Positions 9,367 through 25,761 of a stretch of 64,000 nucleotides of DNA are shown here, in pieces. Source of the DNA: Agathobacter sp. (lineage in GTDB: Bacteria; Bacillota; Clostridia; Lachnospirales; Lachnospiraceae); contig JALEKN010000036.1 in the NCBI GenBank assembly GCA_022769125.1, forward strand, positions 1-64,000. The letters are read 5' to 3'. The notes below the pieces were generated by a model. That model was not told the origin of the DNA and made no database searches. It saw only the letters and a list, made by a program, of their open reading frames with translations. The number at the start of each line of letters is the position of its first letter. The stretch's first letter is position 1. The translations under genes and the position numbers were made by a program.

Positions 9367-9395
9367 TTGACAGCGGTCTGATTCATTCGTAAGAT
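9367..9395 (+). promoter_or_regulatory. Promoter of the nifH-like/hyp/hyd cluster
   Basis: Consensus -35 TTGACA (9367-9372), exactly 17 nt, then -10 TAAGAT (9390-9395). The predicted start near 9402 leaves a leader of about 290 nt before the NifH-like start codon. It is the best promoter match upstream of the cluster, and no comparable one was noticed within it. Confidence 0.7.
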
Positions 9396-9401
9396 GAAAG
9401 A

Positions 9402-9694
9402 ATAATAGTAACGATTCAGTACAGAAATATGCGGTACGGAACAGTTACGAACAATACATGTAATGTATGCTGACCGGGCAAGCGGAGGCTTAACCGGAAA
9501 GCGTCGGATCATTCATACAGTAAGTACGATTCTATGACTGCGAGGTTTTTCCGAACGGAAACAGAAGGACTAAGGGACTCTTCTGCCTTGTGGTGGGAGA
9601 GCTTTTGTTTTATATAAAGCAAAAATGCACCTCACTTCTGACCGGAAATCCAGACACTATATACATTGCACAAAAGGGAAAGAAGGTATAACAC
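9402..9694 (+). ncRNA. Long structured 5' leader of the nifH-like cluster (candidate regulatory RNA)
   Basis: No open reading frame of note fills this stretch. Several hairpins can be drawn: GTAAC/GTTAC enclosing GTAC/GTAC (9408-9448); ATACAT/ATGTAT (9454-9468); CCGG/CCGG enclosing a purine-rich loop (9474-9497); CAGAAG/CTTCTG with the loop GACTAAGGGACT (9562-9585); and an A/T-rich hairpin near 9603-9625. A long leader before a metallocofactor operon suggests a riboswitch or attenuator. I could not match it to any class I know, and folding was done by eye. Confidence 0.45.
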
Positions 9695-10462
9695 ATGTTA
9701 AAAATTGCGATATACGGTAAAGGCGGAATCGGAAAATCAACGGTTACAAGCAATCTGGCTGCGGCATTTGCCTCTTTGGGAAAACGGGTCATACAGATTG
9801 GATGTGATCCGAAAGCAGATTCCACGATAAATCTGTTACATGGGGTTGCAGTGCAGCCGGTTATGACATACCTGAGAGAAAATGATGAAGATCCGACCGA
9901 TTATAAGGAGATCTCAAAGGAGGGATTCGGAGGGGTTCTTTGCATCGAGACAGGTGGGCCGACACCGGGACTTGGATGTGCCGGAAGAGGTATCATTGCG
10001 ACTTTCCAGCTTTTGGAGGATTTGGAGTTATTTGAGAAATGGAAACCGGATGTAGTGCTTTATGATGTCCTTGGGGATGTTGTATGTGGCGGGTTTGCCG
10101 CGCCAATCCGTGAGGGCTATGCCGAAAAAGTCCTAATCGTTACATCCGGAGAGAAGATGGCACTGTACGCGGCAGGAAATATTCATGCGGCAGTAAAGAA
10201 CTTTGAAGACCGCGGATATGCGAGCGTGTATGGAATTGTGCTCAATCACCGGAATGTAGAACATGAAAAGGAAAAGGTAGAGAATTTTGCAAAAGAAAGA
10301 GGTCTTCGAATCGTTGGCGAGATTCCAAGGAGCAATGAGATCAACCGCTATGAAGATGAAGGAAAGACCGTCATTGAAGCAGATGCCACACTTCCTGTCA
10401 GCAAATGCTTTTTGCAGTTGGCAGAGCAGCTGCTTGCTGAGAACAGTTGTATACAGATTTGA
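9695..10462 (+). CDS. NifH/BchL/CfbC-family [4Fe-4S] ATPase (nitrogenase reductase-like)
   Basis: 255 residues, a little shorter than NifH (about 275). The P-loop GKGGIGKST is at residues 8-16, GCDPKADST at 36-44, and the two cysteines that bridge the [4Fe-4S] cluster in NifH homodimers are at C95 (GLGCAGRG) and C131 ([14 protein letters not shown]). R98 matches the ADP-ribosylatable arginine of NifH. In this family an ATP-driven homodimer passes low-potential electrons to a component-1-like partner, and the next genes supply such partners. It opens a cluster with hyp and hyd maturases rather than nif, bch or cfb genes, so its electron acceptor is a new type of complex or assembly scaffold. 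Family is certain; role is inferred. Confidence 0.93.
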
Positions 10463-10495
10463 TACATGATAGAAAAAAGATTTGGAGTTTGATAG

Positions 10496-11839
10496 ATGTC
10501 AGAAAAGAAATGTGCGGTATATTATACCGCTGAAGAATTGACAGAACGTGGAAAAGAGAATATTCCGACCGAATTTGTCTCGGCAGATCATCTGATCTAC
10601 AGCTCTCCGGCAACGCTGGCTTTTAACTCACCGGGGGCAGAAGGCTTCGGAGTAAAGCGTGCGGGTCTTGCAGTCCCGGAATCGGTCATGCTGATTGTTT
10701 CTCCGGGGTGCTGTGGAAGAAATACTTCTCTGATCAGCAAAATACCGGAATACAACAACCGCTTTTTCTATCTGACGATGGATGAGACGGATATTATCAC
10801 AGGACGGCATTTAAAGAAGATTCCGCAGGCAGTCCGGGAGATTGTGGATTTTTTGGATAAAAAGCCATCTGTTGTGATGATCTGCATTACCTGTGTGGAC
10901 GCATTGCTTGGAACCGATATGGAGCGCGTTTGCAAAAAGGCAGAGGAAGAAACCCAAATACAGGTACGGCCGTGTTACATGTATGCGCTGACCAGGGAAG
11001 GGCGCAAGCCACCGATGGTGCATGTCAGACAGTCCATTTATTCACTGCTGGCACCGGCGAAAAGAAATCCGGCTGCAGTAGATATATTAGGCTTTTTTGC
11101 ACCGTTGGATGATACTTCCGAAATATATGCCATCTTACACGCGCTGGGTGTAAAAAAGACGATGGAAATCTCACGGATGAAGACCTACGAAGAGTATCTG
11201 CATATGTCGGAGGCCAATTTTGCATTGGTGCTGAACCCTGAGGCAAGATTTGCAGCCAGGGATTTTGAGGAAAGACTTTCCGTTCCTTCCATTGAGCTTA
11301 CAAGATTTTACGATATCGACCGCATCCAAAAACAGTATGCAGCACTTGGAAAAGCAATTGGCAGAAGGATCGATGATACTGCTTATTATCAAAAAGCAAA
11401 GGATTCTGTAGAGCAGTTTTATAAGAAGTTCGGGCCGGTGGCATTTTCAGTAGGAGAATGCTTAAATGCTGACCCATTTGAACTTTCGCTTGCGCTTTTA
11501 CGATACGGACATGTCGTACCGGAGATTTTTGGAACGATCACGGCGGAGAATTTTGTATACATAAAGCATATTGCACAGATCAGTCCGGATACGAGGGTAT
11601 ATTCTAATTTGCATCCTTCCATGATTTTCTATGAGGAAAACGCAAAAATGGAGGAAGAGAAAAAAAGGAATTTTGTTTCGCTTGGAAAAGATGCAGGCTA
11701 TTACCATGAGAGCAAACCGAATCTTGCATGGAACTCGGATGTGCAGCCATACGGCTATCAGGCTGTAGAAGCACTTTTCGGAGCTTTATACGAACTACTT
11801 GACGAGAGGGATGACGGCGGCCGGGAGGAAAGATCATGA
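10496..11839 (+). CDS. Nitrogenase component 1-like protein, pair A, large subunit
   Basis: 447 residues with the layout of NifD/E/K/N-superfamily proteins. C72-C73 (SPGCCGRN) occupy the first P-cluster-type cysteine position. MDETDIITGRHLKKI corresponds to the ExDxVxG motif, and C130/C133 (ICITCVDALLGTD) to the TC..LIGDD motif. The C-terminal part contains SLGKDAGYYHESKPN and a helical end. ATG 10496 follows GGAG at 10484-10487. The gene overlaps its partner by 4 nt (ATGA), so the two are likely made in equal amounts and form a heterodimer or heterotetramer served by the NifH-like protein. I cannot see the Cys/His ligand set of FeMo-co. The substrate or bound cofactor is unknown. Confidence 0.85.
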   Translation: MSEKKCAVYYTAEELTERGKENIPTEFVSADHLIYSSPATLAFNSPGAEGFGVKRAGLAVPESVMLIVSPGCCGRNTSLISKIPEYNNRFFYLTMDETDIITGRHLKKIPQAVREIVDFLDKKPSVVMICITCVDALLGTDMERVCKKAEEETQIQVRPCYMYALTREGRKPPMVHVRQSIYSLLAPAKRNPAAVDILGFFAPLDDTSEIYAILHALGVKKTMEISRMKTYEEYLHMSEANFALVLNPEARFAARDFEERLSVPSIELTRFYDIDRIQKQYAALGKAIGRRIDDTAYYQKAKDSVEQFYKKFGPVAFSVGECLNADPFELSLALLRYGHVVPEIFGTITAENFVYIKHIAQISPDTRVYSNLHPSMIFYEENAKMEEEKKRNFVSLGKDAGYYHESKPNLAWNSDVQPYGYQAVEALFGALYELLDERDDGGREERS

Positions 11840-12882
11840 AGGGACTCTTTAAATATCTGACACCATTTGCACCAGATCAGTCAGGCGTAGTATCAGTGCT
11901 TTATGAATTTGGAGGGCTGCTTGTAATTTGTGATGCGGGCGGCTGCGCGGGAAATATCTGTGGCTTTGACGAGCCGCGTTGGAGCACTGCAAAGAGTGCT
12001 ATTTTCAGCGCAGGACTTCGGGATATGGACGCGATCATGGGACGGGATGAGCGTCTCGTGAAGAAATTGGCACTTGCAGCAGAGCAGATATCCGGCAATT
12101 TTGCAGCCGTGATTGGTACGCCGGTGCCGGCTGTCATTGCAACGGATTATCACGCGCTTGCAGGAATGATAAAACGCAAGGTCAAACTTCCGGTCATTGC
12201 AATCAGTACAACCGGAATGTCGTATTATGACAAAGGGGCCGAGGCTGCATATCTGGAACTTGTGAGGCAATTCTGCGCGAAAAAGCAAAAAACAAAAAAT
12301 GACCGGATTGGTGTGTTCGGTGCAAATCCACTAGATATGGGCGACCTTATGGCGGCGGAGAAGCTGCAACGGTATTATGACACTATATCTGCCGGATGCA
12401 ATCTGGTCTGCTACGGAATGGGAGCAGGGCTTACAGAGCTTGCCGAAGCCTCTGACGTTCAAAAGAATCTGGTTGTTGCGCCGTCCGGATTAAGGGCAGC
12501 CCGGTATCTTGAAGAAATGTATAATATTCCATACGAAATTGCCAATCCACTTGCAATCGATTGTCTTTGGGATATTGATTACACGGGAAAGCGCGTGCTG
12601 ATCATTCATCAGCAGGTCAGTGCGTATACGCTGCGTAAGGAGTTAAAGCGTCGCAATGCGGCAGAGATTGTTGCGGCAAATTTCTTTATGCAGATACCGG
12701 AATTGGCAGAGGAACAGGATATCCGCCTGACAGAGGAGGAACAGTGTGAAGCACTTTTAAACGGCAACAAATTTGACATTGTTATTGCAGACGCTGTTTT
12801 TAAGAAGATGGCGAAAAATTTTTCCGGTATTTTTATGGAATACCCACAGTTTGCAGTTTCGGGAAAGCTGGTTGAAGCATGA
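11836..12882 (+). CDS. Nitrogenase component 1-like protein, pair A, small subunit
   Basis: 348 residues. The N-terminal pattern APDQSGVVSVLYEFGG, then LLVICDAGGCAGN and DEPRW, followed by SAGLRDMDAIMGRDERL, matches the start of component-1 subunits. C37 is the likely cluster ligand, with extra cysteines at C32 and C42. The position of the second cluster cysteine in the larger subunits reads GTPVPAVIATD here, without cysteine. The same arrangement is found in the 19324-20520 protein, to which it is plainly paralogous. Overlaps of 4 nt at both ends (with the large subunit and hypF) show tight translational coupling. Family is clear from motifs; function is unknown. Confidence 0.83.
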   Translation: MKGLFKYLTPFAPDQSGVVSVLYEFGGLLVICDAGGCAGNICGFDEPRWSTAKSAIFSAGLRDMDAIMGRDERLVKKLALAAEQISGNFAAVIGTPVPAVIATDYHALAGMIKRKVKLPVIAISTTGMSYYDKGAEAAYLELVRQFCAKKQKTKNDRIGVFGANPLDMGDLMAAEKLQRYYDTISAGCNLVCYGMGAGLTELAEASDVQKNLVVAPSGLRAARYLEEMYNIPYEIANPLAIDCLWDIDYTGKRVLIIHQQVSAYTLRKELKRRNAAEIVAANFFMQIPELAEEQDIRLTEEEQCEALLNGNKFDIVIADAVFKKMAKNFSGIFMEYPQFAVSGKLVEA

Positions 12883-15221
12883 TGCAGTATACAACCCAGG
12901 AGATAAAAGTATATGGAATTGTGCAGGGAGTGGGATTTCGGCCAACGGTAAGCAGGCATGCTGCATGCTGTGGAATTTACGGATATGTGTGCAATAAGGG
13001 ACCATATGTGCAGATTCTTGCACAGGGGGATGAAGGAGCAGTTTCGGATTTTGTGGCGAAAATTGAGAAGGAACCGCCGGATCGTGCGGTTATCCTGAAA
13101 ATTGACGCAGTACCGGTGGAATCCAGTGTTTCCTATGATTCGTTTGAAATAGTAGAAAGCGAAAAAGAAACAGGGGAAATATTTATTCCGCCTGATATTG
13201 CAATCTGCGAGGAATGCAAAAGAGAGCTTTATGACAAAACAGATCGCAGGTATCTGCATCCGTTCATCAACTGCACCTGCTGTGGGCCGAGGCTTACCAT
13301 ATTAGATTCACTCCCTTACGATAGGGAGCGAACCAGCATGAAGTCATTTGAAATGTGTCCATCCTGTAGGAATGAATATTACGATCCCAAAAGCCGGAGA
13401 TATGATGCGCAGCCTGTCTGCTGCAATGAATGCGGACCAAGGGTGTATCTGATTGGAAGACCGGAGCATGATCAGGCAGCGATACGTTATGCAAGACAAG
13501 TGCTGCATGACGGTGGAATCATTGCAGTGAAAGGAATCGGAGGATTTCATCTGTGCTGTGATGCAAAGAATGCATCGGCGGTAGAACGACTTCGCAGGCA
13601 GAAGAACCGGCCGGCAAAACCATTTGCAGTTATGATGAGAGATATAGAAACGGTGGAGAGGGAGTGCCTGCTTACAAAAGAGCAGAGAGACATCCTATGT
13701 GGCCATCAAAAGCCAATCCTGCTTCTTGAAAAGAGAAAGAAGAGCAGCCTTAGCAGGGCGATTGCGCCGGGAAATCCGAAGGTAGGAGTGATGCTTCCGT
13801 ATGCGCCGATCCAGTTACTTCTATTTGATAATCAGGATGAAGTAAATGTCAGTGATACACTCGTGATGACCAGTGGAAATACATCCGGTGCTCCAATCTG
13901 CAGAGAGGATGCAGATGCACAGGCAGAGCTGATTTCTCTTTGTGATATGGTTCTCTCACATGACAGGGATATCCGGATGAGAGCGGACGATACCGTTATG
14001 GATATGTTTGAGGGAAGGGAATATATGATCCGCCGTTCCAGGGGATATGCGCCATTGCCACAGTTTGTCCAATCCAATGGAGAGCAGCATATACAAGTGA
14101 TTGCAATGGGCGGAGAATTAAAAAACTCTTTCTGCGTGGGAAAGGGAGACCTCTTTTATATGTCACCTTACATCGGGGATATGGAGGACATCCGGACTGT
14201 GGAAGCACATCGGGAAAGTGCCGCCCGTTTTCTGGATATGCTTGAGGTTAAGCCTCAAGCGGCTGTATGCGACCTCCACCCAAAATATAACACAACTGTT
14301 CTGGCAGAGGAGTACAAAATACCTATCATACGGGTACAGCACCATTATGCACATATTGTAAGCTGCATGGCAGAAAACAATTATAAAGATCCGGTAATCG
14401 GAGTGTCATTTGATGGAACCGGGTATGGCACGGATCATACAATATGGGGAGGGGAGCTGCTGCTGGCAGATACATGCAGCTTCAAACGTGCAGGCCATAT
14501 TGCTTCATTCATCCAGATAGGCGGAGACTTGTCTGCAAAGGAGGGATGGAGAATCGCGGTCTCTATGCTCTATGGTCTGTACAAGGATGAGACAAAAACT
14601 CTCGAGGCGGTCACTGCACTTGGACTTTGCACGGAGGCGGACGCGAAAATCCTGATCCGTATGTATGATCGAAAGATGAATGCGGTTACTTCCACAAGTG
14701 CAGGAAGATTGTTTGATGCAGTCAGTGCGGTACTTGGAATATGCAGTCATTCAACCTTTGAAGGAGAGGCATCCACAGCCTTGCAATTTGCAGCAGAAGC
14801 ATATGAAAAGCAGGTACCACGGGGAGAACGCCTGCGGTGGACGGAGGACAAAGCCATTCCTGCATCAGCTGAAAGCAGTGATGATTCCGGATTTGCTTTG
14901 CAGACGGACCGGCTTTTTGCATGGATTGTACAGATGAGACAGACCGGAGCGGATGCCAGTGCACTTGCCTTCGCATTTCATGAGGCTCTCTCTGAAATGA
15001 TTGCAGAGGCGTGCGTGGAGCTTCGCAGGCAGACGAAGCGCAATACCGTGGCATTAAGCGGTGGCGTTTTCCAGAATCTGCTGCTCCTTAAGTTATGCAG
15101 ATCACAGCTTCAGGCGTTAGATTTCGAGGTGCTGATCCATCATCTGATTCCACCCAATGATGGCGGTCTTGCCCTCGGACAGGCAGTCGTAGCACGAAAC
15201 ATCATTCAAAATACCAAATAG
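12879..15221 (+). CDS. hypF: HypF carbamoyltransferase (cyanide ligand synthesis)
   Basis: 780 residues, full length for HypF. Domains in order: acylphosphatase (VYGIVQGVGFRPTVSRH, R21 and N39); zinc fingers with four CxxC motifs (CEEC, CTCC, CPSC, CNEC, residues of roughly 110-190); a YrdC/Sua5-like carbamoyl-AMP domain (AVKGIGGFHLCCDAKN, then RRQKNRPAKPFAVM); and a Kae1-like domain with HHYAHIVSCMAEN near 487 and VSFDGTGYGTD. HypF moves the carbamoyl group of carbamoyl phosphate to the C-terminal cysteine of HypE for dehydration to a thiocyanate. All catalytic parts look intact. It is coupled by overlap to the component-1-like pair, which ties cyanide chemistry to that pair. No [NiFe]-hydrogenase gene is present in the window. 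Confidence 0.96.
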   Translation: MMQYTTQEIKVYGIVQGVGFRPTVSRHAACCGIYGYVCNKGPYVQILAQGDEGAVSDFVAKIEKEPPDRAVILKIDAVPVESSVSYDSFEIVESEKETGEIFIPPDIAICEECKRELYDKTDRRYLHPFINCTCCGPRLTILDSLPYDRERTSMKSFEMCPSCRNEYYDPKSRRYDAQPVCCNECGPRVYLIGRPEHDQAAIRYARQVLHDGGIIAVKGIGGFHLCCDAKNASAVERLRRQKNRPAKPFAVMMRDIETVERECLLTKEQRDILCGHQKPILLLEKRKKSSLSRAIAPGNPKVGVMLPYAPIQLLLFDNQDEVNVSDTLVMTSGNTSGAPICREDADAQAELISLCDMVLSHDRDIRMRADDTVMDMFEGREYMIRRSRGYAPLPQFVQSNGEQHIQVIAMGGELKNSFCVGKGDLFYMSPYIGDMEDIRTVEAHRESAARFLDMLEVKPQAAVCDLHPKYNTTVLAEEYKIPIIRVQHHYAHIVSCMAENNYKDPVIGVSFDGTGYGTDHTIWGGELLLADTCSFKRAGHIASFIQIGGDLSAKEGWRIAVSMLYGLYKDETKTLEAVTALGLCTEADAKILIRMYDRKMNAVTSTSAGRLFDAVSAVLGICSHSTFEGEASTALQFAAEAYEKQVPRGERLRWTEDKAIPASAESSDDSGFALQTDRLFAWIVQMRQTGADASALAFAFHEALSEMIAEACVELRRQTKRNTVALSGGVFQNLLLLKLCRSQLQALDFEVLIHHLIPPNDGGLALGQAVVARNIIQNTK

Positions 15222-15357
15222 ACAATCACGGTGCCAAAAGAGCATTCGGCACAGAGCATTTGGGCTTTTCAGGGAAGTACATCTTGAAGAAGATAAAAAT
15301 TGTGAGGCAGGATGCAGGAAAATTTGTGATGAAGATATGAGAACAGGAGGAAAGAGT

Positions 15358-15573
15358 ATGTGTGTAGGATTATCGGCAAGAGTTGTAAAGATTGATAAGA
15401 AGACGGCGGTGGTAGATGCATCCGGTGCAAAGAGGGAGGTATCGGTATCACTGCTGGATGAACTGGAACCGGGAGATTATGTGATGGTGCATGCAGGAAT
15501 TGCGATTGCAAAGATCACCGATGAGGATGACAGTGAATCAGATGCCGTCATGGACGAGCTGCTGTCTGAGTAG
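15358..15573 (+). CDS. hypC: HypC-family Fe(CN)2CO scaffold chaperone
   Basis: 71 residues. ATG 15358 is chosen over the upstream in-frame ATG 15337 because AGGAGG precedes it and because HypC needs cysteine at position 2 (MCVGLSARVV). That cysteine binds the iron carrying CN and CO. The body (AVVDASGAKREVSVSLLDE, then GDYVMVHAGIAIAKI) fits the HypC/HupF family. The usual proline of the MClaiPgkV start is missing. The acidic tail is common in the family. HypC works with HypD and hands the Fe(CN)2CO unit to the target apoprotein, so its partner choice here is of interest. A gap of 136 nt separates it from hypF; no clear promoter was found there. Confidence 0.93.
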   Translation: MCVGLSARVVKIDKKTAVVDASGAKREVSVSLLDELEPGDYVMVHAGIAIAKITDEDDSESDAVMDELLSE

Positions 15574-16647
15574 ATGCCGAAAGAGGAACAGCGAATGGAA
15601 AATACAGGCGATAAGAGAACTGCAAGAGAAATAATTACGGGATATACGGGACCGAAACTGAGGATTATGGAAGTGTGCGGCACACATACCCATGAGATCT
15701 TCCGCTTGGGGATAAGAGCACTTTTACCCAAAAATATCGAACTGATTTCGGGACCGGGATGCCCGGTATGTGTAACCCCGACCGGATATATCGATGAAGC
15801 AATCTGGCTTGCAAAGGAAAAAAGTGCAACAATCTGTACCTTCGGGGACCTGGTGAGAGTACCGGGAAGCAGCAAAAGCCTCGCGGGGGAAAGAGCAGAG
15901 GGGGGACATATACAGGTTGTGTATTCGCCGCTGGATGCAGAAATATATGCGAAGGAACACCCTGGTGAGCAGGTAGTATTTTTGTCCGTTGGATTCGAGA
16001 CAACAACACCGGCAAGCTGTTTGGCAGTAAAACAGGCAATAGAGGACGGATTGGATAACTTTTCAATTCTCACGGCAAATAAGACGATGCCGAGTGCATA
16101 TTATGCACTGAAGGACTCCGTAGATGTATACCTGTATCCGGGACATGTAAATGCGATAACAGGAACAAAACTATGCGAATCCCTTGTTGCGGATGGAATC
16201 AGTGGAGTTGTTGCGGGATTTACGGCAAAGGAACTTATGACGGCCCTTGCAGCGGCAATTATCAAGTCGCAGGAGGGAAAACCATTTTTCGTGAATGCAT
16301 ACCCGCGTGTCGTGACAAGAGAGGGAAGCCGTGAGGCACAGAAGATTGTGGCAGACATGATGGAGCCATGTGATGCGCAGTGGAGAGGGCTTGGAGTGAT
16401 AAAAAATTCAGGCATGAAACTTCGCAGTGCATATGGTTTGTACGATGCCAGATGTAAGTATCAGATTCCTGCAATCGAGGGCCATGAAAATCCTGCGTGC
16501 AGATGTGGAGAGGTATTACAGGGAAAATGTAAGTCTTCGGACTGCCCGCTTTTTGGAAAAAACTGTACCCCGGAACATCCGGTGGGAGCATGCATGGTAT
16601 CCAATGAGGGCGCATGCAGTGCATATTACTCTTACGCGAATATGTAA
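15574..16647 (+). CDS. hypD: HypD Fe-S scaffold protein for Fe(CN)2CO assembly
   Basis: 357 residues from ATG 15574; a second ATG at 15595 has a better ribosome site and would remove seven residues. Conserved elements are C35 in EVCGTHTHE, C63/C66 in GPGCPVC, SVGFETTTPA, YPGHVNAITG, and the C-terminal cysteine set that binds a [4Fe-4S] cluster (CRCGEVLQGKC, CPLFGKNCTPEHPVGACMVS, GACSAYY). HypD with HypC takes up iron and receives cyanide from HypE. It follows hypC with no gap. All catalytic residues I can recognise are present, so the Fe(CN)2CO unit should be made. Confidence 0.97.
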   Translation: MPKEEQRMENTGDKRTAREIITGYTGPKLRIMEVCGTHTHEIFRLGIRALLPKNIELISGPGCPVCVTPTGYIDEAIWLAKEKSATICTFGDLVRVPGSSKSLAGERAEGGHIQVVYSPLDAEIYAKEHPGEQVVFLSVGFETTTPASCLAVKQAIEDGLDNFSILTANKTMPSAYYALKDSVDVYLYPGHVNAITGTKLCESLVADGISGVVAGFTAKELMTALAAAIIKSQEGKPFFVNAYPRVVTREGSREAQKIVADMMEPCDAQWRGLGVIKNSGMKLRSAYGLYDARCKYQIPAIEGHENPACRCGEVLQGKCKSSDCPLFGKNCTPEHPVGACMVSNEGACSAYYSYANM

Positions 16648-16708
16648 ATATAAATATTTATTATAGAATATCAGATTCACCTGAATAGAAGATAAGGAGA
16701 AAAACAGA

Positions 16709-17713
16709 ATGAGTGAAACAGTTACCCTAGCGCATGGCGCAGGCGGACGTCAGACCAGTGAACTGATCGACCGGGTATTTAAGAGCCATTTTTCAAATTC
16801 CGATCTAACCGCGGATGATGCGGCAGTACTTACCCCTCCGGCGGGGCGTATGGCAATGACTACGGATGGATTTATTGTATCGCCTGCCTTTTTTGCAGGG
16901 GGAAATATCGGAAAGCTTTCTATCTGCGGTACAGTAAATGATTTGTCCTGCATGGGCGCAAAGCCGCTCTATCTGACCTGCTCATTTGTAATCGAAGAGG
17001 GATTTGAGATGGAAAAGCTGGAGCAGATAGCAGACGCGATGGCAAAGACGGCCGCAGAATGCGGAGTACGGATTGTGGCCGGAGATACCAAGGTCGCAGG
17101 GAAAGGACAGGTTGATGGTGTATTTATCACAACGACAGGTGTGGGAGAAATCCCGGATGGTGTGGAAACATCCGGTGCGAAAGCAAAGCCGGGAGATGTT
17201 ATTCTTGTGACCGGAGATATCGGCAGACATGGATGTACAATCCTTCTGGAGCGGGAAGACTTCGGAATTGATGCCAAGGTGACTAGTGACTGTGCACCGC
17301 TGTGGAATTGTGTCAAGGCGATGCTTGAAGTGACAAAAGATATTCATGTTATCCGCGATGCGACAAGAGGCGGTGTCGGAACGGTTCTATATGAGATTGC
17401 GGGGCAGAGTAATGTCGGAGTAAAAATCGATTCCGAAAAAGTTCCGGTTGAGCCACAGGTAAAGGGAGTGTGCAGGATGCTTGGATTAGAACCACTCTAT
17501 CTGGCCTGTGAGGGCCGCCTTGTTGTGGTTGTGCCAAGAGAACACGCCAATGAAGTTCTTACAACACTAAAGAATTGTAAGTATTCAGAAGGAGCCGCAG
17601 TTATCGGAGAAATTACAAAGGAACATGCAAAGAGTGTTGTAATGACAACGGAGATCGGTTCACAGACGATGCTTCCAAGACCGGGCGGGGAGCTTTTGCC
17701 GCGGATCTGCTAA
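16709..17713 (+). CDS. hypE: HypE carbamoyl dehydratase
   Basis: 334 residues of the PurM-like family. LAHGAGGRQTSELID, the glycine-rich MTTDGFIVSPAFF, VNDLSCMGAKP, IVAGDTKV and RDATRGGVGT are typical. The protein ends PRIC, so its last residue C334 is the cysteine that HypF carbamoylates and HypE dehydrates with ATP to a thiocyanate. It is intact, lies 61 nt after hypD and has its own ribosome site (AAGGAG). With HypF, HypC and HypD it completes the cyanide/iron branch. HypA and HypB, which insert nickel, and a hydrogenase protease are not seen nearby. Confidence 0.97.
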   Translation: MSETVTLAHGAGGRQTSELIDRVFKSHFSNSDLTADDAAVLTPPAGRMAMTTDGFIVSPAFFAGGNIGKLSICGTVNDLSCMGAKPLYLTCSFVIEEGFEMEKLEQIADAMAKTAAECGVRIVAGDTKVAGKGQVDGVFITTTGVGEIPDGVETSGAKAKPGDVILVTGDIGRHGCTILLEREDFGIDAKVTSDCAPLWNCVKAMLEVTKDIHVIRDATRGGVGTVLYEIAGQSNVGVKIDSEKVPVEPQVKGVCRMLGLEPLYLACEGRLVVVVPREHANEVLTTLKNCKYSEGAAVIGEITKEHAKSVVMTTEIGSQTMLPRPGGELLPRIC

Positions 17714-17735
17714 TAGAAAAGAGTGGGAGGAAGAT

Positions 17736-18005
17736 ATGACAACGAGAGTTGCGGTAATATCAATTATTGTGGAGCAAAACGGGGATACTGAGGAGCTGAA
17801 TCATCTGCTTAGTACATATGGAAATTATATTATCGGAAGAATGGGAATTCCCTACCGAAAGAAAAATATCAGCATCATCAGCGTTGCCATTGACGCACCG
17901 CAGGATGTTACAAGTACCCTGACCGGAAACATTGGCCAGCTTCAGGGAATCAGCAGTAAGACCGTCTATTCCCAGATTATCAGTGACATAGAGGAAACAT
18001 GTTAA
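17736..18005 (+). CDS. TM1266-type putative iron-only hydrogenase system regulator
   Basis: 89 residues matching the small ACT/NikR-C-like family named after TM1266, usually encoded beside [FeFe]-hydrogenase maturases. Typical features are ISIIVEQNG, the LNxxLSxYxxYIIGRMGIPY pattern and SVAIDAPQDVTSTLTG. It has no DNA-binding domain of its own, so regulation would need a partner. Here it sits between hypE and a second component-1-like pair and overlaps the next start by 7 nt. Its presence argues that the hydE/hydF part descends from an H-cluster maturation operon. Its molecular role is not established to my knowledge. Confidence 0.88.
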   Translation: MTTRVAVISIIVEQNGDTEELNHLLSTYGNYIIGRMGIPYRKKNISIISVAIDAPQDVTSTLTGNIGQLQGISSKTVYSQIISDIEETC

Positions 18006-19327
18006 AACAGATCGGAACGTATGGCGAAAATCGAAAAGATGAGATAAAAATCAAAAATGCGGAATTTCCGGCAATATTCCATGCCGGGCTCGAGTTTAAT
18101 GCTCCGGTGCACGGAACATGGAATATTGTCCATATAGGAATGCAGCTGCCGGAATCAATTCAGATTTATGTGTGCGCGCAAAACTGTATGCGGGGAGTTG
18201 TCCTTACTGCAGCAGAGATGAACGCAGCAGACCGTTTTTCATATGTGGTATTATCCGAAAGAGATATGATTGCCGGAGATGTTGAGGAAATAACAATCCG
18301 TGGTGTTATTGATGTTTTACAAAAGAGACAGCAGTTACCCCGGGCAGTTTTACTTTTTACGGTATGTGTGCATCACTTTTTGGGGTGTGATTATAACCGT
18401 ATTTACCGGGAATTGGAACAAAAATTTCCACAGATTGATTTTGTGAGGTGCTACATGGATCCCATTATGCAGAAGCAGGGCCTGACACCGGATCAGAAGC
18501 TGCGGCGTGCGATCTTGGAAAAACTCCCCCAATACTCCTCGATAGAAAGAAAACTTGCTATTTTAGGGAGCGATTTTGCTTACGATACCGAAAGCGGATT
18601 GTTCGGGCTGTTAAGGCAGGAAGGCTGCGAAATCGTGCAGAGCAGAACCTGCAGCACTTACGATGAATTTTTGCAGATGGCACAGGCAGAAGTATTTGTC
18701 TGCGTGTACCCTCCGGCGAAAATCGGCACAGAGCAGACGGCAAAACGGCTGGGGCGCACATTTTTCTACTTACCAGCAAGCTTTGACTATGCATTGATTG
18801 AACGACAGGCGGAAATCCTTGGAAACTATTTCGCAGTTACAACAAAAGAATTGAAAAATGAGAGAAGGCTGGCAGAGGAGGCGTTAGATAAGGCATTTTC
18901 TGTCATAGGGACAACACCAATTGCAATCGACTATACCGTGCACCCACGTCCACTTGGACTGGCGAGGCTGTTGCTGTCCCATGGATTTTTTGTTGATACG
19001 ATCTATATAGATACGGTGAGCAAAGAGGAGGAAGCAGACTTTATTTGGCTGAAAGAGCATGTGCCGGAATTAAAACTTTCTGCTACCATACAGGTGTCAA
19101 AACGCATCGCGGTACGAGGAAGAAACAAAAAGGTGCTCGCAATCGGACAAAAGGCTGCATGGTTTGAAGACACACCATGGTTTGTCAATATGGTATCCGG
19201 AGGAAATCTATATGGATACTCCGGGATCTGCGAGATGACCAATCTTATGACGGATGCATTTTTAAACCCAAAAGATACGAAGGATATTGTGCCGCGCAAG
19301 GGATGGGGGTGTGACAGCTGCCTATGA
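17999..19327 (+). CDS. Nitrogenase component 1-like protein, pair B, large subunit
   Basis: 442 residues, distantly paralogous to the 10496-11839 protein. C59 and C63 (VCAQNCMRG) sit at the first cluster-cysteine position, LSERDMIAGDVEEIT is the ExDxxxG motif, and C123/C130 (LFTVCVHHFLGCD) stand at the second. The protein ends GWGCDSCL, a CxxC tail absent from pair A that could bind metal or take part in thiol exchange. It overlaps the TM1266-type gene by 7 nt and its partner by 4 nt. By analogy with NifDK and NifEN, one pair may be the catalytic complex and the other the assembly scaffold; which is which cannot be read from sequence alone. Confidence 0.82.
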   Translation: MLKQIGTYGENRKDEIKIKNAEFPAIFHAGLEFNAPVHGTWNIVHIGMQLPESIQIYVCAQNCMRGVVLTAAEMNAADRFSYVVLSERDMIAGDVEEITIRGVIDVLQKRQQLPRAVLLFTVCVHHFLGCDYNRIYRELEQKFPQIDFVRCYMDPIMQKQGLTPDQKLRRAILEKLPQYSSIERKLAILGSDFAYDTESGLFGLLRQEGCEIVQSRTCSTYDEFLQMAQAEVFVCVYPPAKIGTEQTAKRLGRTFFYLPASFDYALIERQAEILGNYFAVTTKELKNERRLAEEALDKAFSVIGTTPIAIDYTVHPRPLGLARLLLSHGFFVDTIYIDTVSKEEEADFIWLKEHVPELKLSATIQVSKRIAVRGRNKKVLAIGQKAAWFEDTPWFVNMVSGGNLYGYSGICEMTNLMTDAFLNPKDTKDIVPRKGWGCDSCL

Positions 19328-20520
19328 ATCATACATATCGAATCATTCCGGTATACACCGGTGATGTGTCAGGAGTTGCCTCTGCGTTATACGAGCTTGG
19401 GGGGATGGTGGTAATCCATGATCCTTCCGGGTGCAATTCAACTTATAATACGCATGATGAAACCAGATGGTATGACAAAGAGAGCCTGATCTTTATTTCC
19501 GGACTTTCTGAGAGGGATGCTGTTTTAGGAAACGACCGGAAGCTGATCGAGGATGTCACGGAGGCTGCACTTGAACTTCATCCGGCATTTATTGCACTTA
19601 CAAACTCTCCGATTCCATTCATGAATGGAACGGATTTTCTGGCGATTGCCAGAGTAATAGAAAAGAGAACAGGTATTCCGGCTTTTTATGTTCCGGCAAA
19701 CGGAATGCACGATTATACAGTCGGTGCAGGTGCGGCTTTTGCAGCGCTTGCAGGCTATATGAACAAAGAATGCATTGCTCAGCGGGTGGAGAAAGAAAAT
19801 GTTGTCAAAATGAATATTTTAGGAGTGACTCCATTGGATTTTGATGCGGCAGGCGCCGTCATGAAAATGGAGAACATGATGACGGCTCATGGATTCGAAA
19901 TCGTAGCGGATCTTGGAATGGGAGAACATGCAGACAATTGGAAAAATGCGCCCCATGCACAGGTAAATCTGGTCGTTTCAGCAGCGGGTCTTCCTCTGGC
20001 AGAGGAGATGGAAAAGCGCTACCGGATTCCATATGTTGTGGGAATTCCAACCGGGAAATTTGCAAAGATATTGTTTGAATCATTGAGGAAAGCAGCGCAG
20101 AGTGGGAAAAATGTGGATGCATTTCAAGCTGCTATGGAACAGGCAGACATCAGGGAAAAGAAAAATTTCCTCTTTATTGGTGAAGCGGTAACGATGAAAT
20201 CAATTGCGGCGGCAATTGCATTGGAAAAGGGTGTGATTGTGCGTATCGTGTGCCCGCTTGAGAACGGAGCAAAGCTGTTGACCGGGGAGGATGCACAGAT
20301 AGAAGGGGAAGAAGAACTCGAAATGCTGCTCGGGCAGCAGGCAAAGGAGGAGACAACTGTTGTTGCGGACCCTTTGTACGAGCCGGTCATGCCGGAGAAC
20401 GTGCGTTTTATTCCGCTGTCCCACGAGGCCTTTTCCGGGCGTTGTTTTGCAAAACAAAGAATCTGCACGGTGGGGGATCCGGCAGATGTTTTAACATACC
20501 TGGAAGAACAGGGCGTGTAG
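19324..20520 (+). CDS. Nitrogenase component 1-like protein, pair B, small subunit
   Basis: 398 residues, paralogous to the 11836-12882 protein. Shared N-terminal features are TGDVSGVASALYELGG, HDPSGCNST with C37, DETRW, and SGLSERDAVLGNDRKL. The second cluster position reads LTNSPIPFMNGTD, again without cysteine. HDPSGC resembles the HGPxGC motif of NifD/E-type proteins more closely than the CDAGGC of pair A. The C-terminal third is acidic and ends with a short helix. It starts inside the stop of the preceding gene (ATGA), consistent with a stoichiometric complex. Function is unknown; it is most likely a component of a scaffold or reductase that receives electrons from the NifH-like protein. 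Confidence 0.82.
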   Translation: MNHTYRIIPVYTGDVSGVASALYELGGMVVIHDPSGCNSTYNTHDETRWYDKESLIFISGLSERDAVLGNDRKLIEDVTEAALELHPAFIALTNSPIPFMNGTDFLAIARVIEKRTGIPAFYVPANGMHDYTVGAGAAFAALAGYMNKECIAQRVEKENVVKMNILGVTPLDFDAAGAVMKMENMMTAHGFEIVADLGMGEHADNWKNAPHAQVNLVVSAAGLPLAEEMEKRYRIPYVVGIPTGKFAKILFESLRKAAQSGKNVDAFQAAMEQADIREKKNFLFIGEAVTMKSIAAAIALEKGVIVRIVCPLENGAKLLTGEDAQIEGEEELEMLLGQQAKEETTVVADPLYEPVMPENVRFIPLSHEAFSGRCFAKQRICTVGDPADVLTYLEEQGV

Positions 20521-20536
20521 AAAAGGAGGTCATTGT

Positions 20537-21736
20537 ATGTCATTGAATGAGACCCCATCCGGGGAACGTGTACACATTGGATTTTTTGGAAGGGGAAATG
20601 CTGGCAAGTCAAGTCTGGTGAATGCGGTTACAAGACAGGAACTGTCGGTTGTATCGGATACACTTGGAACAACGACCGATGCGGTAAGCAAGGCAATGGA
20701 GCTTCTTCCGATGGGACCGGTCGTTATCATTGATACACCGGGATTTGATGATGAGGGAAGCCTCGGACAGCTGCGTGTGAAGAAAACCAGGCAGGTACTT
20801 GCAAAAACAGATATTGCGGTGCTGGTTGCAGACATTGGTGCAGGACTTGGGGTCTGCGAGTTGGAGCTGATTGATATATTTAAGGAACAGAAGACTCCCT
20901 TTCTCATAGCCTGGAATAAGGCAGACCTGCTGGAAGAAGATGCAATACGGCCTGCTGTGGATGGATGTGAGCAGATGTATGTCAGCGCTCTTGCAAAGAC
21001 GAATATCGAGGAACTGAAAGAAAAAATTGCATCAATGACGGTTTCATCACAGACAGCGCCTCCAATCGTGGGCGATCTTGTAAAACCAATGGCAAAGGTG
21101 GTTCTTGTCATACCGATTGACGAATCGGCACCGAAAGGACGTCTTATTCTGCCACAGCAACAGGTAATCCGTGAGCTGCTGGAGGCTGGCGCTGTTTCTA
21201 TCTGTGTCAGGGAGACGGAGCTGGCAGGATTACTTAACGATATGATGCCGCAAAAGCCGGATCTGGTCATTACGGATAGCCAGGCATTTAAACGCGTGGC
21301 AGCGGATGTCCCAAAGGATGTACTTCTCACTTCGTTTTCGATTCTGATGGCACGCCATAAGGGTTTTCTGGAGGAGGCAGTGCAGGGATGCCGCATGATT
21401 GACAAACTGAAGGAAAACGATAAGGTGCTGATTGCGGAAGGATGTACACATCACAGACAGTGCAATGACATCGGGAGTGTGAAAATTCCGCGGTGGCTGA
21501 GAGAACATGTGGGCGCACAGCTTATGATTGAAACATGCTCAGGAAGGGATTTCCCGGATGATTTAAGTCAATATGCGCTGGTTATTCACTGTGGCGGTTG
21601 TATGTTAAATGAGAGAGAAGTGCTTTCGCGCATGGAGCGTGCAAAGAGACAGGGAGTTCCATTTACCAATTATGGGACAGCAATTGCCTATATGAACGGA
21701 ATCTTAGAGCGCAGCATTGAGGTTATTTACGGATAG
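20537..21736 (+). CDS. hydF: HydF, [FeFe]-hydrogenase H-cluster maturation GTPase
   Basis: 399 residues. The N-terminal GTPase domain has G1 GRGNAGKSS, G3 DTPG and G4 NKAD. A dimerisation region follows, then the C-terminal cluster domain with the HydF signature CxHx45HCxxC (GCTHHRQC, then HCGGCM). HydF is the scaffold on which the [2Fe] H-subcluster is built before transfer to HydA. All motifs look intact. It follows pair B by 16 nt and precedes hydE. No hydA or hydG is present in the window, so this copy may be dedicated to the local cluster or may also serve a hydrogenase encoded elsewhere. Confidence 0.96.
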   Translation: MSLNETPSGERVHIGFFGRGNAGKSSLVNAVTRQELSVVSDTLGTTTDAVSKAMELLPMGPVVIIDTPGFDDEGSLGQLRVKKTRQVLAKTDIAVLVADIGAGLGVCELELIDIFKEQKTPFLIAWNKADLLEEDAIRPAVDGCEQMYVSALAKTNIEELKEKIASMTVSSQTAPPIVGDLVKPMAKVVLVIPIDESAPKGRLILPQQQVIRELLEAGAVSICVRETELAGLLNDMMPQKPDLVITDSQAFKRVAADVPKDVLLTSFSILMARHKGFLEEAVQGCRMIDKLKENDKVLIAEGCTHHRQCNDIGSVKIPRWLREHVGAQLMIETCSGRDFPDDLSQYALVIHCGGCMLNEREVLSRMERAKRQGVPFTNYGTAIAYMNGILERSIEVIYG

Positions 21737-21760
21737 AAAATAAGCCGAAAGGATGTAGAG

Positions 21761-22810
21761 ATGACAACGGAAAAGATGAATTTGATTGAAAAACTGTATC
21801 AGACACACGACTTAAGTGATGATGGATTTCTATGTCTGCTCGGAGGAATGACAGAAGCGGAAACACAGCTGCTGTATGAGAAGGCGAGATTGGCTGCGAC
21901 AAAGATATATCAGAAGCAGATTTATCTGCGCGGGCTGATCGAATTCACAAATATCTGTAAGAATAATTGCTTCTATTGCGGAATACGAAGGGGCAATACA
22001 AACGTGCATCGTTACCGGCTCGGGGAAGAAGAAATCGTTGCCTGTGCAAAAAAGGGATATGCACTCGGATTCCGGACAATCGTGTTGCAGGGCGGTGAAG
22101 ATCCTTACTATACAGATGAGCAGATCTGCTCCATTGTCAGAAAAATCAAACAGGAATGTCCGGATGCCGCTGTGACACTGTCAATCGGAGAGAAAGAACA
22201 TGACAGTTACCAGGCTTATTTTGATGCGGGCGCTGATCGATATTTATTGCGGCATGAAACCGCAGATGAGAAGCACTACGGAATGCTTCATCCGGCAGAA
22301 CTTTCCGGAGCACATCGAAAAAGGTGTCTGAGAGATTTGAAGGAGATTGGTTATCAGGTGGGATGCGGGATCATGGTCGGAGCTCCTTATCAGACAAGGG
22401 AGCATATTCTTGAGGATATTCGGTTTATGCAGGAATTGCAGCCACATATGATTGGAATCGGACCATTTATTCCACATAAGGATACGCCATTTGCAAAGGA
22501 ACCTGCGGGAACCCTTTCGGATACACTTGCACTTCTTGGAATCCTGAGACTGGCTTTTCCGAATGTTTTACTCCCTGCGACAACTGCACTAGGGACAATT
22601 CATCCACAAGGGAGAGAACTTGGTGTTCTTGCAGGTGCGAATGTCATTATGCCAAATCTGTCTCCGACAAGCGTCAGAAAAGATTATATGCTGTATGATG
22701 GAAAGATCTGTACCGGAGAAGAGGCTGCGGAATGCCACCACTGCATTGAGCGCAGAATGGAACGAATCGGATATCAGGTTGTCGTGGAACGCGGTGATTA
22801 CAGGGAATAA
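21761..22810 (+). CDS. hydE: HydE, radical SAM protein of H-cluster assembly
   Basis: 349 residues. The radical SAM triad CxxxCxxC is C66, C70, C73 (NICKNNCFYCG). VLQGGEDPYYTD, GCGIMVGAPYQT and GIGPFIPHKDTPF are HydE-like. A second cysteine set C317, C325, C328 has the spacing (Cx7Cx2C) of the accessory cluster in Thermotoga HydE. HydE acts on the Fe(CO)2(CN)-cysteine synthon from HydG during H-cluster assembly. HydG is not seen here while HypCDEF are, so the iron-CO/CN donor for this HydE could be different. BioB and PylB are relatives, but the motifs and the hydF neighbour favour HydE. Confidence 0.94.
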   Translation: MTTEKMNLIEKLYQTHDLSDDGFLCLLGGMTEAETQLLYEKARLAATKIYQKQIYLRGLIEFTNICKNNCFYCGIRRGNTNVHRYRLGEEEIVACAKKGYALGFRTIVLQGGEDPYYTDEQICSIVRKIKQECPDAAVTLSIGEKEHDSYQAYFDAGADRYLLRHETADEKHYGMLHPAELSGAHRKRCLRDLKEIGYQVGCGIMVGAPYQTREHILEDIRFMQELQPHMIGIGPFIPHKDTPFAKEPAGTLSDTLALLGILRLAFPNVLLPATTALGTIHPQGRELGVLAGANVIMPNLSPTSVRKDYMLYDGKICTGEEAAECHHCIERRMERIGYQVVVERGDYRE

Positions 22811-22827
22811 AGGAAAGGTGTCCTAAA

Positions 22828-23481: not shown

Positions 23482-23493
23482 GGAATAACGGAT

Positions 23494-24711
23494 ATGGGGC
23501 TTTTTATCAGATATTTCGCAATTGAATGGAAGAGAAGCTGCAAGGTATGGTTAAAAACGCTGATTACCGGTGTAATCGTGACGGTGCTTCTTACGGTTGC
23601 AGCAATGGGACTTACAGCAATCATGAGACATTTATCTTCGTTTGAAACAGTCCGGGTAGGAATGGTAATACCGGAGGATGAAGCAGATGAAGATACAATG
23701 TTTGCGGTCTCTTTCCTGACTGCTATGGACAGTGTGAAAAGTGTTGGCAGTTTTACTTATTATGGGTCCGAGGAGGAGGCTCTTTTGGCGTTGAAAGAGG
23801 GAAAGGTGCAGACGGTTATCTCACTTCCACCTTTTTTCTATGAGAGTGTGGACAATGGGGTGAATGAACCTGCAACTCTTTATATTTCGCAGAATGCGGA
23901 TCTGAATGTGCGGATTTTTGCAGAATTGCTAAAAAGCGGTGTCCGGATGCTTCAGACTGCGGAGGCGGGAGCATATGCCATGCTCGATATTGCACAGGAG
24001 GACCGTCCGGTGGAGGAAAGTTGGAATGAGGCGGGAAATGTAGTGGCGTATACATATCTGGCAGAGGCACTGACAAGGAGCAGAGTGTTTGACCGGCAGC
24101 TTTTGTCCTCAATCGGGAGTGTAAATTATGCACAGTTCTATTTTTTGGCGGCAATGCTTGTGATATTGCTGTTGCAGGGGTGGAATTTTGCACACTTATA
24201 TCAGAAGAAAAACAGAGTATTGATGCAGAAATTAAGAGTGGAGGGACTCGGTTGTGCAGGACAGACATTTGTGCGGCTTATGGTGATGACACTTCTCTTG
24301 TGGCTGCAGGCACTGATCCTGTATTATGGGGCATATATGATTACCCGCGTATTTCACATTCCGATGCTCCTAAGTGATGGAATCATTGTATGCGGGCTGT
24401 TTTTGCTCGCATTTTCGATAGCCTGTTTCTTTCACTTTATCTATGCAGTTGCGGGTGGAGACATATCCGGGTGCGTACTTTTATTTGCGATAATCCTTTT
24501 CATGATTCTTGTGTCGGGAATATGGATTCCGGGTAATTATATGCCAAAGATCCTGCAGAGTATCTCCGGTTTTGTGCCTCTTAAATGGTGGGAAACATTT
24601 GCCTTGCAGGTATTTTACGGGGAATGGCCCGGCAGACATGCGCTGCTGTTATGTGTGGTGTCGACCGTCACAGCAATTGTGGGAGGAGGCGTGCTATGCA
24701 AAAATACATAA
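23494..24711 (+). CDS. ABC-2 type permease, first subunit
   Basis: 405 residues. An N-terminal membrane helix near residues 20-45 is followed by a long extracytoplasmic domain (residues of roughly 50-210) and then about five to six membrane segments, including MLVILLLQGWNF, LLLWLQALILYYGAYM and FAIILFMILVSGIWIPGNYM. This is the layout of ABC-2/YhgE-like exporters. It lies 12 nt after the ATPase gene and overlaps the second permease gene by 16 nt, which implies a heterodimeric membrane part. The substrate is unknown. Confidence 0.82.
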   Translation: MGLFIRYFAIEWKRSCKVWLKTLITGVIVTVLLTVAAMGLTAIMRHLSSFETVRVGMVIPEDEADEDTMFAVSFLTAMDSVKSVGSFTYYGSEEEALLALKEGKVQTVISLPPFFYESVDNGVNEPATLYISQNADLNVRIFAELLKSGVRMLQTAEAGAYAMLDIAQEDRPVEESWNEAGNVVAYTYLAEALTRSRVFDRQLLSSIGSVNYAQFYFLAAMLVILLLQGWNFAHLYQKKNRVLMQKLRVEGLGCAGQTFVRLMVMTLLLWLQALILYYGAYMITRVFHIPMLLSDGIIVCGLFLLAFSIACFFHFIYAVAGGDISGCVLLFAIILFMILVSGIWIPGNYMPKILQSISGFVPLKWWETFALQVFYGEWPGRHALLLCVVSTVTAIVGGGVLCKNT

Positions 24712-25724
24712 CATGGTACTGGCTTCTTCTAAAGGAAAAACTTCATACGGCAGGTGTGTATCTGCAGATTGCGTCGGTGCTTCTGGTGGCATTTACGATT
24801 ACACAGACAACGATTCCGGATACGGAAAATGTAACGGTGGGAATTGTGTGCAACAACAGCAGCAAAGCGGAACAGGTCATGGAACAATTAGTTTCGTTTT
24901 CGGATGTGTACGATTTTGTTGCAGTAGATTCGGAGGAGACACTTCGGGCGCAAGTAGAACGAGCGGAGTTCGAATGCGGATTTGTGTTTGATGAAGCGTT
25001 TGACCGGATGATGGAGAGAGAAAGCCTGACGGATTCCATCCGCTTTTACTGTTCGCAGGCCACAAATAAGGGGGATGCGATAGTAGAAACCGTGTATTCA
25101 GCTGTATTGGAGGCTTATAGCGGAACACTTTTGGAGGAGGTGCAACAGAAGCTCTACAAGGAAAAGAACCCTCGGCGTCAGGAAAAAATAATGGATCGTT
25201 TTTATGGATATCTGGATTCGGATGAAGTATTTCAGGTAACAATCTGCAGAGTAGAGACAACATCTTCGGAAAAAAACAATAAAATTGCTATATATCCGCT
25301 TCAGGGCTGGATGGGAATGCTGGTTGCTCTTGGCATTTTCTTATCAGGGCTTAGACGCTGGGAGCAGGGATGTTTTTTCTATAAGGCACTTGATAAAAGG
25401 GAGGCAGAGCGCTTCTTTGCAATAGATACATGTGCCTCTGGAACGATTCCAGCTCTTATATGCCTATGTATTTCTATTGCAGGCCCATATTCAAGAGGCT
25501 GTGTCAGTGAAGTATGCCACATGGCCGGATTCTTCCTATACACCGTCTTATGGTGTGCGATAGCCGGAAAACTGTTTCGAAGTTATCTTGGGATGCTGGC
25601 GGCGGTGCCAGTGTATGTTGTGGCAAATGTGTTGATTTGTCCGGTGATATTTGATATAGTGACTTATGTTCCGGCAATGCAGTATGTCCGGATACTATTC
25701 CCATTAGGAATATACTTGCTTTAA
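24696..25724 (+). CDS. ABC-2 type permease, second subunit
   Basis: 342 residues from ATG 24696, chosen because GGGAGGAGG precedes it and the longer in-frame start would overlap the previous gene by over 120 nt. An N-terminal membrane helix (residues 17-37, LHTAGVYLQIASVLLVAF), an extracytoplasmic domain of about 170 residues and about five C-terminal membrane segments mirror the first permease. Last gene of the tightly spaced cluster; the zinc-ribbon gene follows after 37 nt with no terminator between, so transcription may continue to 28203. Confidence 0.78.
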   Translation: MQKYITWYWLLLKEKLHTAGVYLQIASVLLVAFTITQTTIPDTENVTVGIVCNNSSKAEQVMEQLVSFSDVYDFVAVDSEETLRAQVERAEFECGFVFDEAFDRMMERESLTDSIRFYCSQATNKGDAIVETVYSAVLEAYSGTLLEEVQQKLYKEKNPRRQEKIMDRFYGYLDSDEVFQVTICRVETTSSEKNNKIAIYPLQGWMGMLVALGIFLSGLRRWEQGCFFYKALDKREAERFFAIDTCASGTIPALICLCISIAGPYSRGCVSEVCHMAGFFLYTVLWCAIAGKLFRSYLGMLAAVPVYVVANVLICPVIFDIVTYVPAMQYVRILFPLGIYLL

Positions 25725-25761
25725 TGGGAAAATTATTAAAACGAAAGAAAAGGGAAAAGTG

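Follow-up and report, generated by a model that had tools for sequence, protein, structure and literature searches.

A cluster of nitrogenase-like, hyp and hyd genes

The stretch analysed here comprises 64,000 nucleotides (nt) of an Agathobacter sp. genome (assembly GCA_022769125.1, contig JALEKN010000036.1) and is hereafter called the window, whose numbering is used for all cluster positions. It carries nitrogenase-like genes together with hydrogenase maturation genes (hypFCDE, hydF and hydE), a combination that we consider as a candidate substitute for HydG in the assembly of the H-cluster of [FeFe]-hydrogenases. The source genome (2.75 Mb in 68 contigs, 93% complete) holds the window on contig 42. 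The fifteen genes that the first-pass annotation had described as a same-strand series of nitrogenase-like, Hyp, Hyd and exporter genes are all present, between positions 9695 and 25724 of the + strand. They are listed below with protein length in amino acids (aa), profile scores and the counts of conserved cysteines:

9695..10462, +, H1, NifH-like ATPase, 255 aa; Fer4_NifH 294 bits; C95 and C131 in 19/19
10496..11839, +, A1, component-1-like alpha subunit, 447 aa; Oxidored_nitro 96 bits; C72 and C133 in 13/13
11836..12882, +, A2, component-1-like partner, 348 aa; Oxidored_nitro 69 bits; C37 and C42 in 17/17
12879..15221, +, hypF; TIGR00143, 756 bits (cut-off 466)
15358..15573, +, hypC; TIGR00074, 66 bits (cut-off 48); Cys2 in 16/16
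15574..16647, +, hypD; TIGR00075, 381 bits (cut-off 193)
16709..17713, +, hypE; TIGR02124, 435 bits (cut-off 252); C-terminal Cys334 in 16/16
17736..18005, +, TM1266-family protein; TIGR03959, 107 bits (cut-off 61)
17999..19327, +, B1, component-1-like subunit, 442 aa; Oxidored_nitro 45 bits; C59, C63 and C123 in 22/22
19324..20520, +, B2, component-1-like partner, 398 aa; Oxidored_nitro 86 bits; C37 in 22/23
20537..21736, +, hydF; TIGR03918, 553 bits (cut-off 326)
21761..22810, +, hydE; TIGR03956, 570 bits (cut-off 255)
22828-23481 (ATPase), 23494-24711 and 24585-25724 (permeases), +, ABC-2 transporter; both permeases match Pfam ABC2_membrane_3, the second one scoring below cut-off

HypF, HypC, HypD, HypE, the TM1266 protein, HydF and HydE of the window exceed their NCBIfam family cut-offs. 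H1 belongs to Pfam Fer4_NifH and A1, A2, B1 and B2 to Pfam Oxidored_nitro, and all five missed every NCBIfam equivalog cut-off tested (NifH, NifD/E, BchL/N/B, COR, Cfb). We refer to A1-A2 as module A and to B1-B2, with a second NifH where one is present, as module B. The earlier statement that no hydrogenase subunit is encoded concerns the window alone; elsewhere the genome encodes HydA, on contig C48, and the large subunit of a [NiFe]-hydrogenase, read as Ech-like, on contig C25. An Rfam scan of window positions 6000-29000 returned one tRNA and nothing else.

Conservation of the gene set

When 299 genomes of the same family (Lachnospiraceae) were searched with A1, close orthologues (52-65% identity) turned up in 18 genomes in addition to that of the window. 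Up to contig ends, the family order is H1-A1-A2-hypF-hypC-hypD-hypE-(TM1266)-(second NifH)-B1-B2, with hydF and hydE adjoining or elsewhere in the genome; the second NifH, directly upstream of B1 in many relatives, is absent from the window. Module B precedes H1 in G183, G243 and G167, lies on the opposite strand in G203 and is found on a separate contig in G136, G091, G230 and G071. In G230, hydE-hydF is inserted between A1 and A2, and in G091 the contig stops after A2. Both B1 and B2 are present in 18/19 cluster genomes, the remaining one (G167) having a B2 fragment only, at a contig end.

A wider scan of 84,980 species genomes gave 476 stretches encoding A1 relatives, from which the best 80 were kept. 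Enough flanking sequence is available for 39 of these species loci, all found through A1, and these contain H1 (38), A2 (39), hypF (39), hypC (32), hypD (37), hypE (39), B1 (38), B2 (35), the TM1266 gene (26), the second NifH (24), hydF (13) and hydE (7). The nifH-like gene, A1-A2, hypFCDE, the TM1266 gene and B1-B2 are a real conserved unit: the three gene sets that had been noticed side by side in the window (nifH-like gene with both pairs, hypCDEF, hydEF) co-occur across relatives as one. An assembly artefact is ruled out: the 18 further family genomes that have a close A1 contain the same genes, as far as their contigs extend.

Hosts among the best 80 include Blautia massiliensis, B. luti, B. 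schinkii, Faecalicatena contorta, Coprococcus comes, Eubacterium ramulus, Roseburia faecis, Clostridium drakei, C. muellerianum, C. thailandense and Coriobacteriaceae/Atopobiaceae assemblies. In a tree of the 80 A1 proteins, 21 of the 22 coriobacterial rows form a single well-supported clade nested in Bacillota rows (the remaining row is a fragment), a nesting that suggests transfer of the cluster between phyla, apparently into Coriobacteria. A1 and A2 are apparently fused in some relatives (L047 at 10354, 812 aa; L048 at 7448, 854 aa).

HydG in genomes with and without the cluster

We compared 65 family genomes: 19 with A1 (cases), 4 with a module-B locus only and 42 without close A1 (controls). 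HydG scores over its cut-off in none of the 19 cases, in 1/4 module-B-only genomes and in 19/42 controls. HydE is present in all cases (one copy cut at a contig end), in 4/4 module-B-only genomes and in 18/42 controls, and HydF in 19/19, 4/4 and 19/42 (one in fragments), respectively. All 18 controls with HydE also have HydG, against 0 of the 19 cases with HydE (Fisher test among HydE-positive genomes, p ~6e-11 without the module-B-only genomes and 9e-11 with them, nominal values given that the genomes are related). The hydrogenase itself is retained: the HydA domain (PF02906) was found in 62/65 genomes, including 19/19 cases, and 12/12 HydA loci read from cluster genomes have all three H-cluster motifs. 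HydA of the window's genome is of another type, missed by the motif pattern, with cysteine motifs recognised by eye.

The same picture holds for a further set of 54 carriers, composed of 50 of the 80 named loci and 4 genomes from other families of the class; 3 of the 54 match first-set cases exactly and the 4 class-level genomes may overlap named loci. HydG is over cut-off in 2 of these carriers and absent in 52. Pooling both carrier sets gives HydG in 2/70 and a [NiFe] large subunit in 7/70.

Sub-threshold matches to the HydG model occur in 14/19 cases, at ~160-204 bits against a cut-off of 312. Those tested pass the cut-off for ThiH (6/6 from cases and 2/2 from other carriers), and an atypical HydG below cut-off was rejected on the basis of these 8/8 ThiH assignments, which cover 6 of the 14 such cases and 2 other carriers.

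HydE is intermixed with HydE of HydG genomes

A HydE tree was built from 34 proteins (17/19 cases, 13/18 HydG controls and the 4 module-B-only genomes). Case and HydG labels are interleaved in it, which suggests that the same HydE works with either supplier, and well-supported branches force at least six changes of the case label. At 70%, cases and HydG controls of this 34-protein set are not told apart by any HydE residue; together with the label changes, this points to repeated exchange of the supplier with HydE left unchanged. The contrast can be followed within the window's own genus, where G292 has no cluster and carries hydE, hydG, hydF and hydA as neighbours. Between its HydA and that of the window's genome, in which the cluster is present and HydG was not found, identity is 58%.

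Given that carriers keep HydA, HydE and HydF without HydG, and that their HydE is intermixed with that of HydG genomes, the product of the cluster is most likely the ordinary H-cluster, with the nitrogenase-like pairs acting as assembly reductases or scaffolds. From these comparisons of gene content and phylogeny, we consider it likely, with good confidence, that the cluster replaces HydG in ordinary [FeFe]-hydrogenase H-cluster assembly. The relation to HydE-HydF-HydG maturation is correspondingly close, with orthologous HydE and HydF, the TM1266 protein and HydA targets in common; the difference is that the cluster genomes lack HydG, the tyrosine lyase for CO and CN, and have nitrogenase-like pairs and HypCDEF instead.

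The nitrogenase-like pairs

H1 falls short of the equivalog cut-offs for NifH (304 bits against 394), CfbC (298 against 402), BchL (204 against 345) and BchX (197 against 331). When the A1 profile was compared with solved structures, nitrogenase alpha chains and NifE matched best. In our reading of the alignments, on which the ligand-by-ligand correspondence of cysteines with nitrogenase rests, A1 C72 and C133 and A2 C37 and C42 appear to align with P-cluster ligand positions. The FeMo-cofactor of nitrogenase component 1 is bound by alpha-subunit Cys275 and His442; at the cofactor-cysteine position of the NifE alignments, the A1 residue is asparagine, histidine or, in one row, aspartate. For the pairs A1A2 and B1B2, kept cysteines along with a missing FeMo-cofactor cysteine in A1 fit DPOR/NifEN-type [4Fe-4S] two-electron reductases or scaffolds better than N2-reducing enzymes. 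The cluster shares with NifEN, DPOR (BchLNB) and CfbCD the pairing of a NifH-like ATPase with component-1-like subunits and differs from them by scores below the equivalog cut-offs, by its link to hydrogenase maturation genes and, on our own reading, by fewer P-cluster-position cysteines in A1.

The first-pass annotation had proposed that the cluster makes a new organometallic cofactor, with one of the two pairs as the enzyme that finally carries it. That the pairs miss the NCBIfam cut-offs for NifDK, NifEN, DPOR and Cfb is in keeping with this proposal, as are the two species that retain HydG too, where the cluster may do something else. Against it, HydE, HydF and HydA are kept in 19/19 carriers while HydG is missing, no specialised HydE clade or residue set accompanies the cluster, and A1 lacks the FeMo-cofactor cysteine; we hold this proposal to be improbable.

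HypCDEF and [NiFe]-hydrogenase

HypD is present in 19/19 cases, 0/4 module-B-only genomes and 3/42 controls. The three HypD-positive controls have a [NiFe] large subunit; a fourth [NiFe]-positive control (G129, 86% complete) is without HypD. Among carriers the large subunit is rare, being found in 3/19 cases and 4/54 further carriers and absent in 16/19 and 50/54. An additional hypD exists in all three [NiFe]-positive cases (the window's genome, G230 and G069), encoded on the same contig as the [NiFe]-hydrogenase, at a distance of ~2 kilobases (kb) in G230 and G069 and of ~17 kb in the window's genome, there with hypE. A dedication of the cluster HypCDEF to [NiFe]-hydrogenase was rejected on these two grounds, and the earlier assumption that they do not serve such an enzyme encoded elsewhere holds in most carriers. 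HypA or HypB was not identified among the cluster genes examined; no genome-wide search for HypA/HypB was made.

Another explanation would have HypCDEF serving an ordinary [NiFe]-hydrogenase and HydE/HydF an ordinary [FeFe]-hydrogenase, the nitrogenase-like genes being incidental neighbours. It could draw on the large subunit, read as Ech-like, in the window's genome, but the contig of that enzyme has its own hypD-hypE, most carriers have no large subunit at all and the same genes stay together in two phyla. This distribution largely refutes the explanation, which we hold to be very improbable. HypCDEF feeding HydE/HydF is the simplest reading. All four proteins of [NiFe] maturation are present, with the HypE C-terminal cysteine and HypC Cys2 conserved, and the cluster set differs from the classical one in its link to HydE/HydF and in the lack of a [NiFe] large subunit in most carriers.

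A possible HydG-free route to the H-cluster ligands

HydG converts tyrosine to an Fe(CO)2(CN) product, HypCDEF make Fe(CN)2(CO), for which carbamoyl phosphate is the cyanide source, the [2Fe] unit is completed by HydE and HydF, and NifH proteins can reduce CO2 to CO in vitro. If HydE is unchanged, the cluster should supply it with the same or a similar iron synthon. In the route that we propose, HypF and HypE would turn carbamoyl phosphate into a cyanide donor and HypC-HypD would load the cyanide onto iron. HypCDEF would thus account for CN on iron, and a reductive step would be needed for CO: NifH-driven A1A2 and B1B2 could supply it, or exchange one CN for CO. Module A may act on the HypCD-bound iron and module B may pass the iron-CO-CN unit to HydE, after which HydE and HydF would build the [2Fe] unit as usual. 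Module B would be the constant part, and module A with HypCDEF the feed used by most genomes. This division of labour among the modules is a guess, and less well supported than the replacement of HydG by the cluster as a whole.

Taken as a whole, we think it reasonably probable that there is a second, HydG-free route to the CO and CN ligands of the H-cluster, in which HypCDEF, along with two nitrogenase-like reductases driven by ATP, would build the iron-CO-CN unit that HydE uses. It would have changed places with HydG on several occasions among gut anaerobes, and could in addition offer an anaerobic source of CO ligands.

Observations that weigh against HydG replacement

Several observations count against replacement of HydG by the cluster. 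The case genomes were chosen for A1, and on the HydE tree the case label shows some clustering (12/500 shuffles as low). In two carriers, C. drakei (L219) and C. thailandense (L220), the cluster is accompanied by HydG and by a [NiFe] large subunit. With the window's genome at 93% completeness, the failure to find HydG in it is weak evidence by itself. Moreover, 20 of the 22 controls without HydE, HydF and HydG keep the HydA domain, 12 of them at >300 bits, and all three H-cluster motifs are present in 5/6 of these HydA-only controls that were read; a nitrogenase-like gene is over cut-off in just 2 of the 22, leaving 20 without one. Hydrogenase genes without known maturases are common in the family and the absence of HydG alone proves little, so the weight of the argument lies on the retention of HydE and HydF in genomes that lack HydG. 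There is also a chemical mismatch: the HypCD product has two CN and one CO, against one CN and two CO for HydG, so that a conversion must be assumed. Finally, four genomes have module B without module A and HypD, and one of the four has HydG.

Published gene counts bear on the same question. In the available part of a paper on eight acetogenic Clostridium species (PMC9431212), HydE and HydF are reported in 8/8, a typical HydG in 3/8, HypCDEF in 8/8 and HypAB in 3/8, with HypF, C, D and E under consecutive locus numbers, in the order of the cluster, in most species. There the authors see no straightforward explanation and discuss an atypical HydG-like radical S-adenosylmethionine protein (seven species) and uptake of free ligands, both of which compete with our proposal. 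Replacement of HydG by the cluster would account for acetogens that possess HydE/HydF and hypCDEF while lacking both a typical HydG and HypAB.

The twelve genomes with a high-scoring HydA and without HydE, HydF and HydG are G019, G055, G075, G089, G135, G141, G149, G161, G169, G201, G247 and G283. HydA loci L077, L087, L089, L097, L100 and L101 belong to this set, and only G161 has a nitrogenase-like gene over cut-off.

Module B without module A

Three of the four module-B-only genomes (G227, G117, G134) have HydE, HydF and module B, with HydG and HypD both missing, and these suggest module B as the constant part of the system. In loci L060, L065 and L068 an importer of the FecCD/periplasmic-binding-protein type stands beside module B in place of module A and hypCDEF, and in L060 (13217-14353, - strand; G227) the importer ATPase has a C-terminal TM1266 domain. 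This fusion would tie a metal-chelate-type importer to hydrogenase maturation, and the FecCD-type importer may supply what module B needs. Locus L062 resembles these three module-B loci, the ones in which importer genes were tested.

These loci argue for a variant in which module B alone (second NifH, B1 and B2) replaces HydG, module A and HypCDEF making a different product or being an optional ligand supply. G227, however, is 87% complete and its HypD could be missed. B1 in 38/39 and B2 in 35/39 full-flank loci indicate that modules A and B go together there, though those loci were found through A1. We consider the variant unlikely and retain the replacement of HydG by the cluster as a whole.

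Relation to the literature

Dos Santos et al. 2012 (PMC3464626) mention, in one sentence, that in Coprococcus catus and other Firmicutes genes resembling NifHEN lie next to those for hydrogenase maturation, and suggest a possible role in active-site metallocluster assembly. This neighbourhood is very probably the same as the cluster; the available passages of that paper do not contain the HydG test, the split into two modules or the argument from orphan HypCDEF sets. The claim that no such system had been described thus stands in part: the neighbourhood was noted in 2012, and a role in replacing HydG was not found described. No paper describing HydG replacement turned up in a search that reached few subscription journals and no bioRxiv preprints. 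For C. autoethanogenum, the main text of a transposon-directed insertion-site sequencing (TraDIS) paper (PMC9004356), as available, has no words starting with nif, nitrogenase or maturation. Within the searched literature, a HydG-independent route to the H-cluster is most likely new as a functional proposal, built from known families.

If true, it would explain how [FeFe]-hydrogenases are made without HydG in many gut bacteria and possibly in industrial acetogens, would give orphan HypCDEF sets a job and an uncharacterised branch of the nitrogenase superfamily a function, and would connect the assembly pathways of two hydrogenases that are not related. As carriers of both HydG and the cluster, C. 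drakei and C. thailandense would be useful for asking whether two routes serve different hydrogenases.

The ABC-2 exporter and other neighbouring genes

The ABC-2 exporter had been counted among the fifteen genes of the cluster in the first-pass annotation. No match to its permeases (23494-25724) was found in 22 family loci, 11 of which extend at least 2.7 kb past the downstream end of the module; the comparison covers only short stretches directly after hydE in those loci, and the 39 species loci end too early for it. With permeases in 0/22 family loci the exporter was rejected as a part of the system, and it is probably a neighbour outside it.

At L052-L059, L061, L066, L067 and L071, a NifH gene and two component-1-like genes were seen close to genes for ABC transporters, with neither hydE nor hydF in view; these loci are perhaps a separate, uncharacterised nitrogenase-like group. 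Just past the cluster, the window encodes a large protein (25759-28188) in which an N-terminal zinc-ribbon-like CxxC...CxxC motif was recognised by eye.

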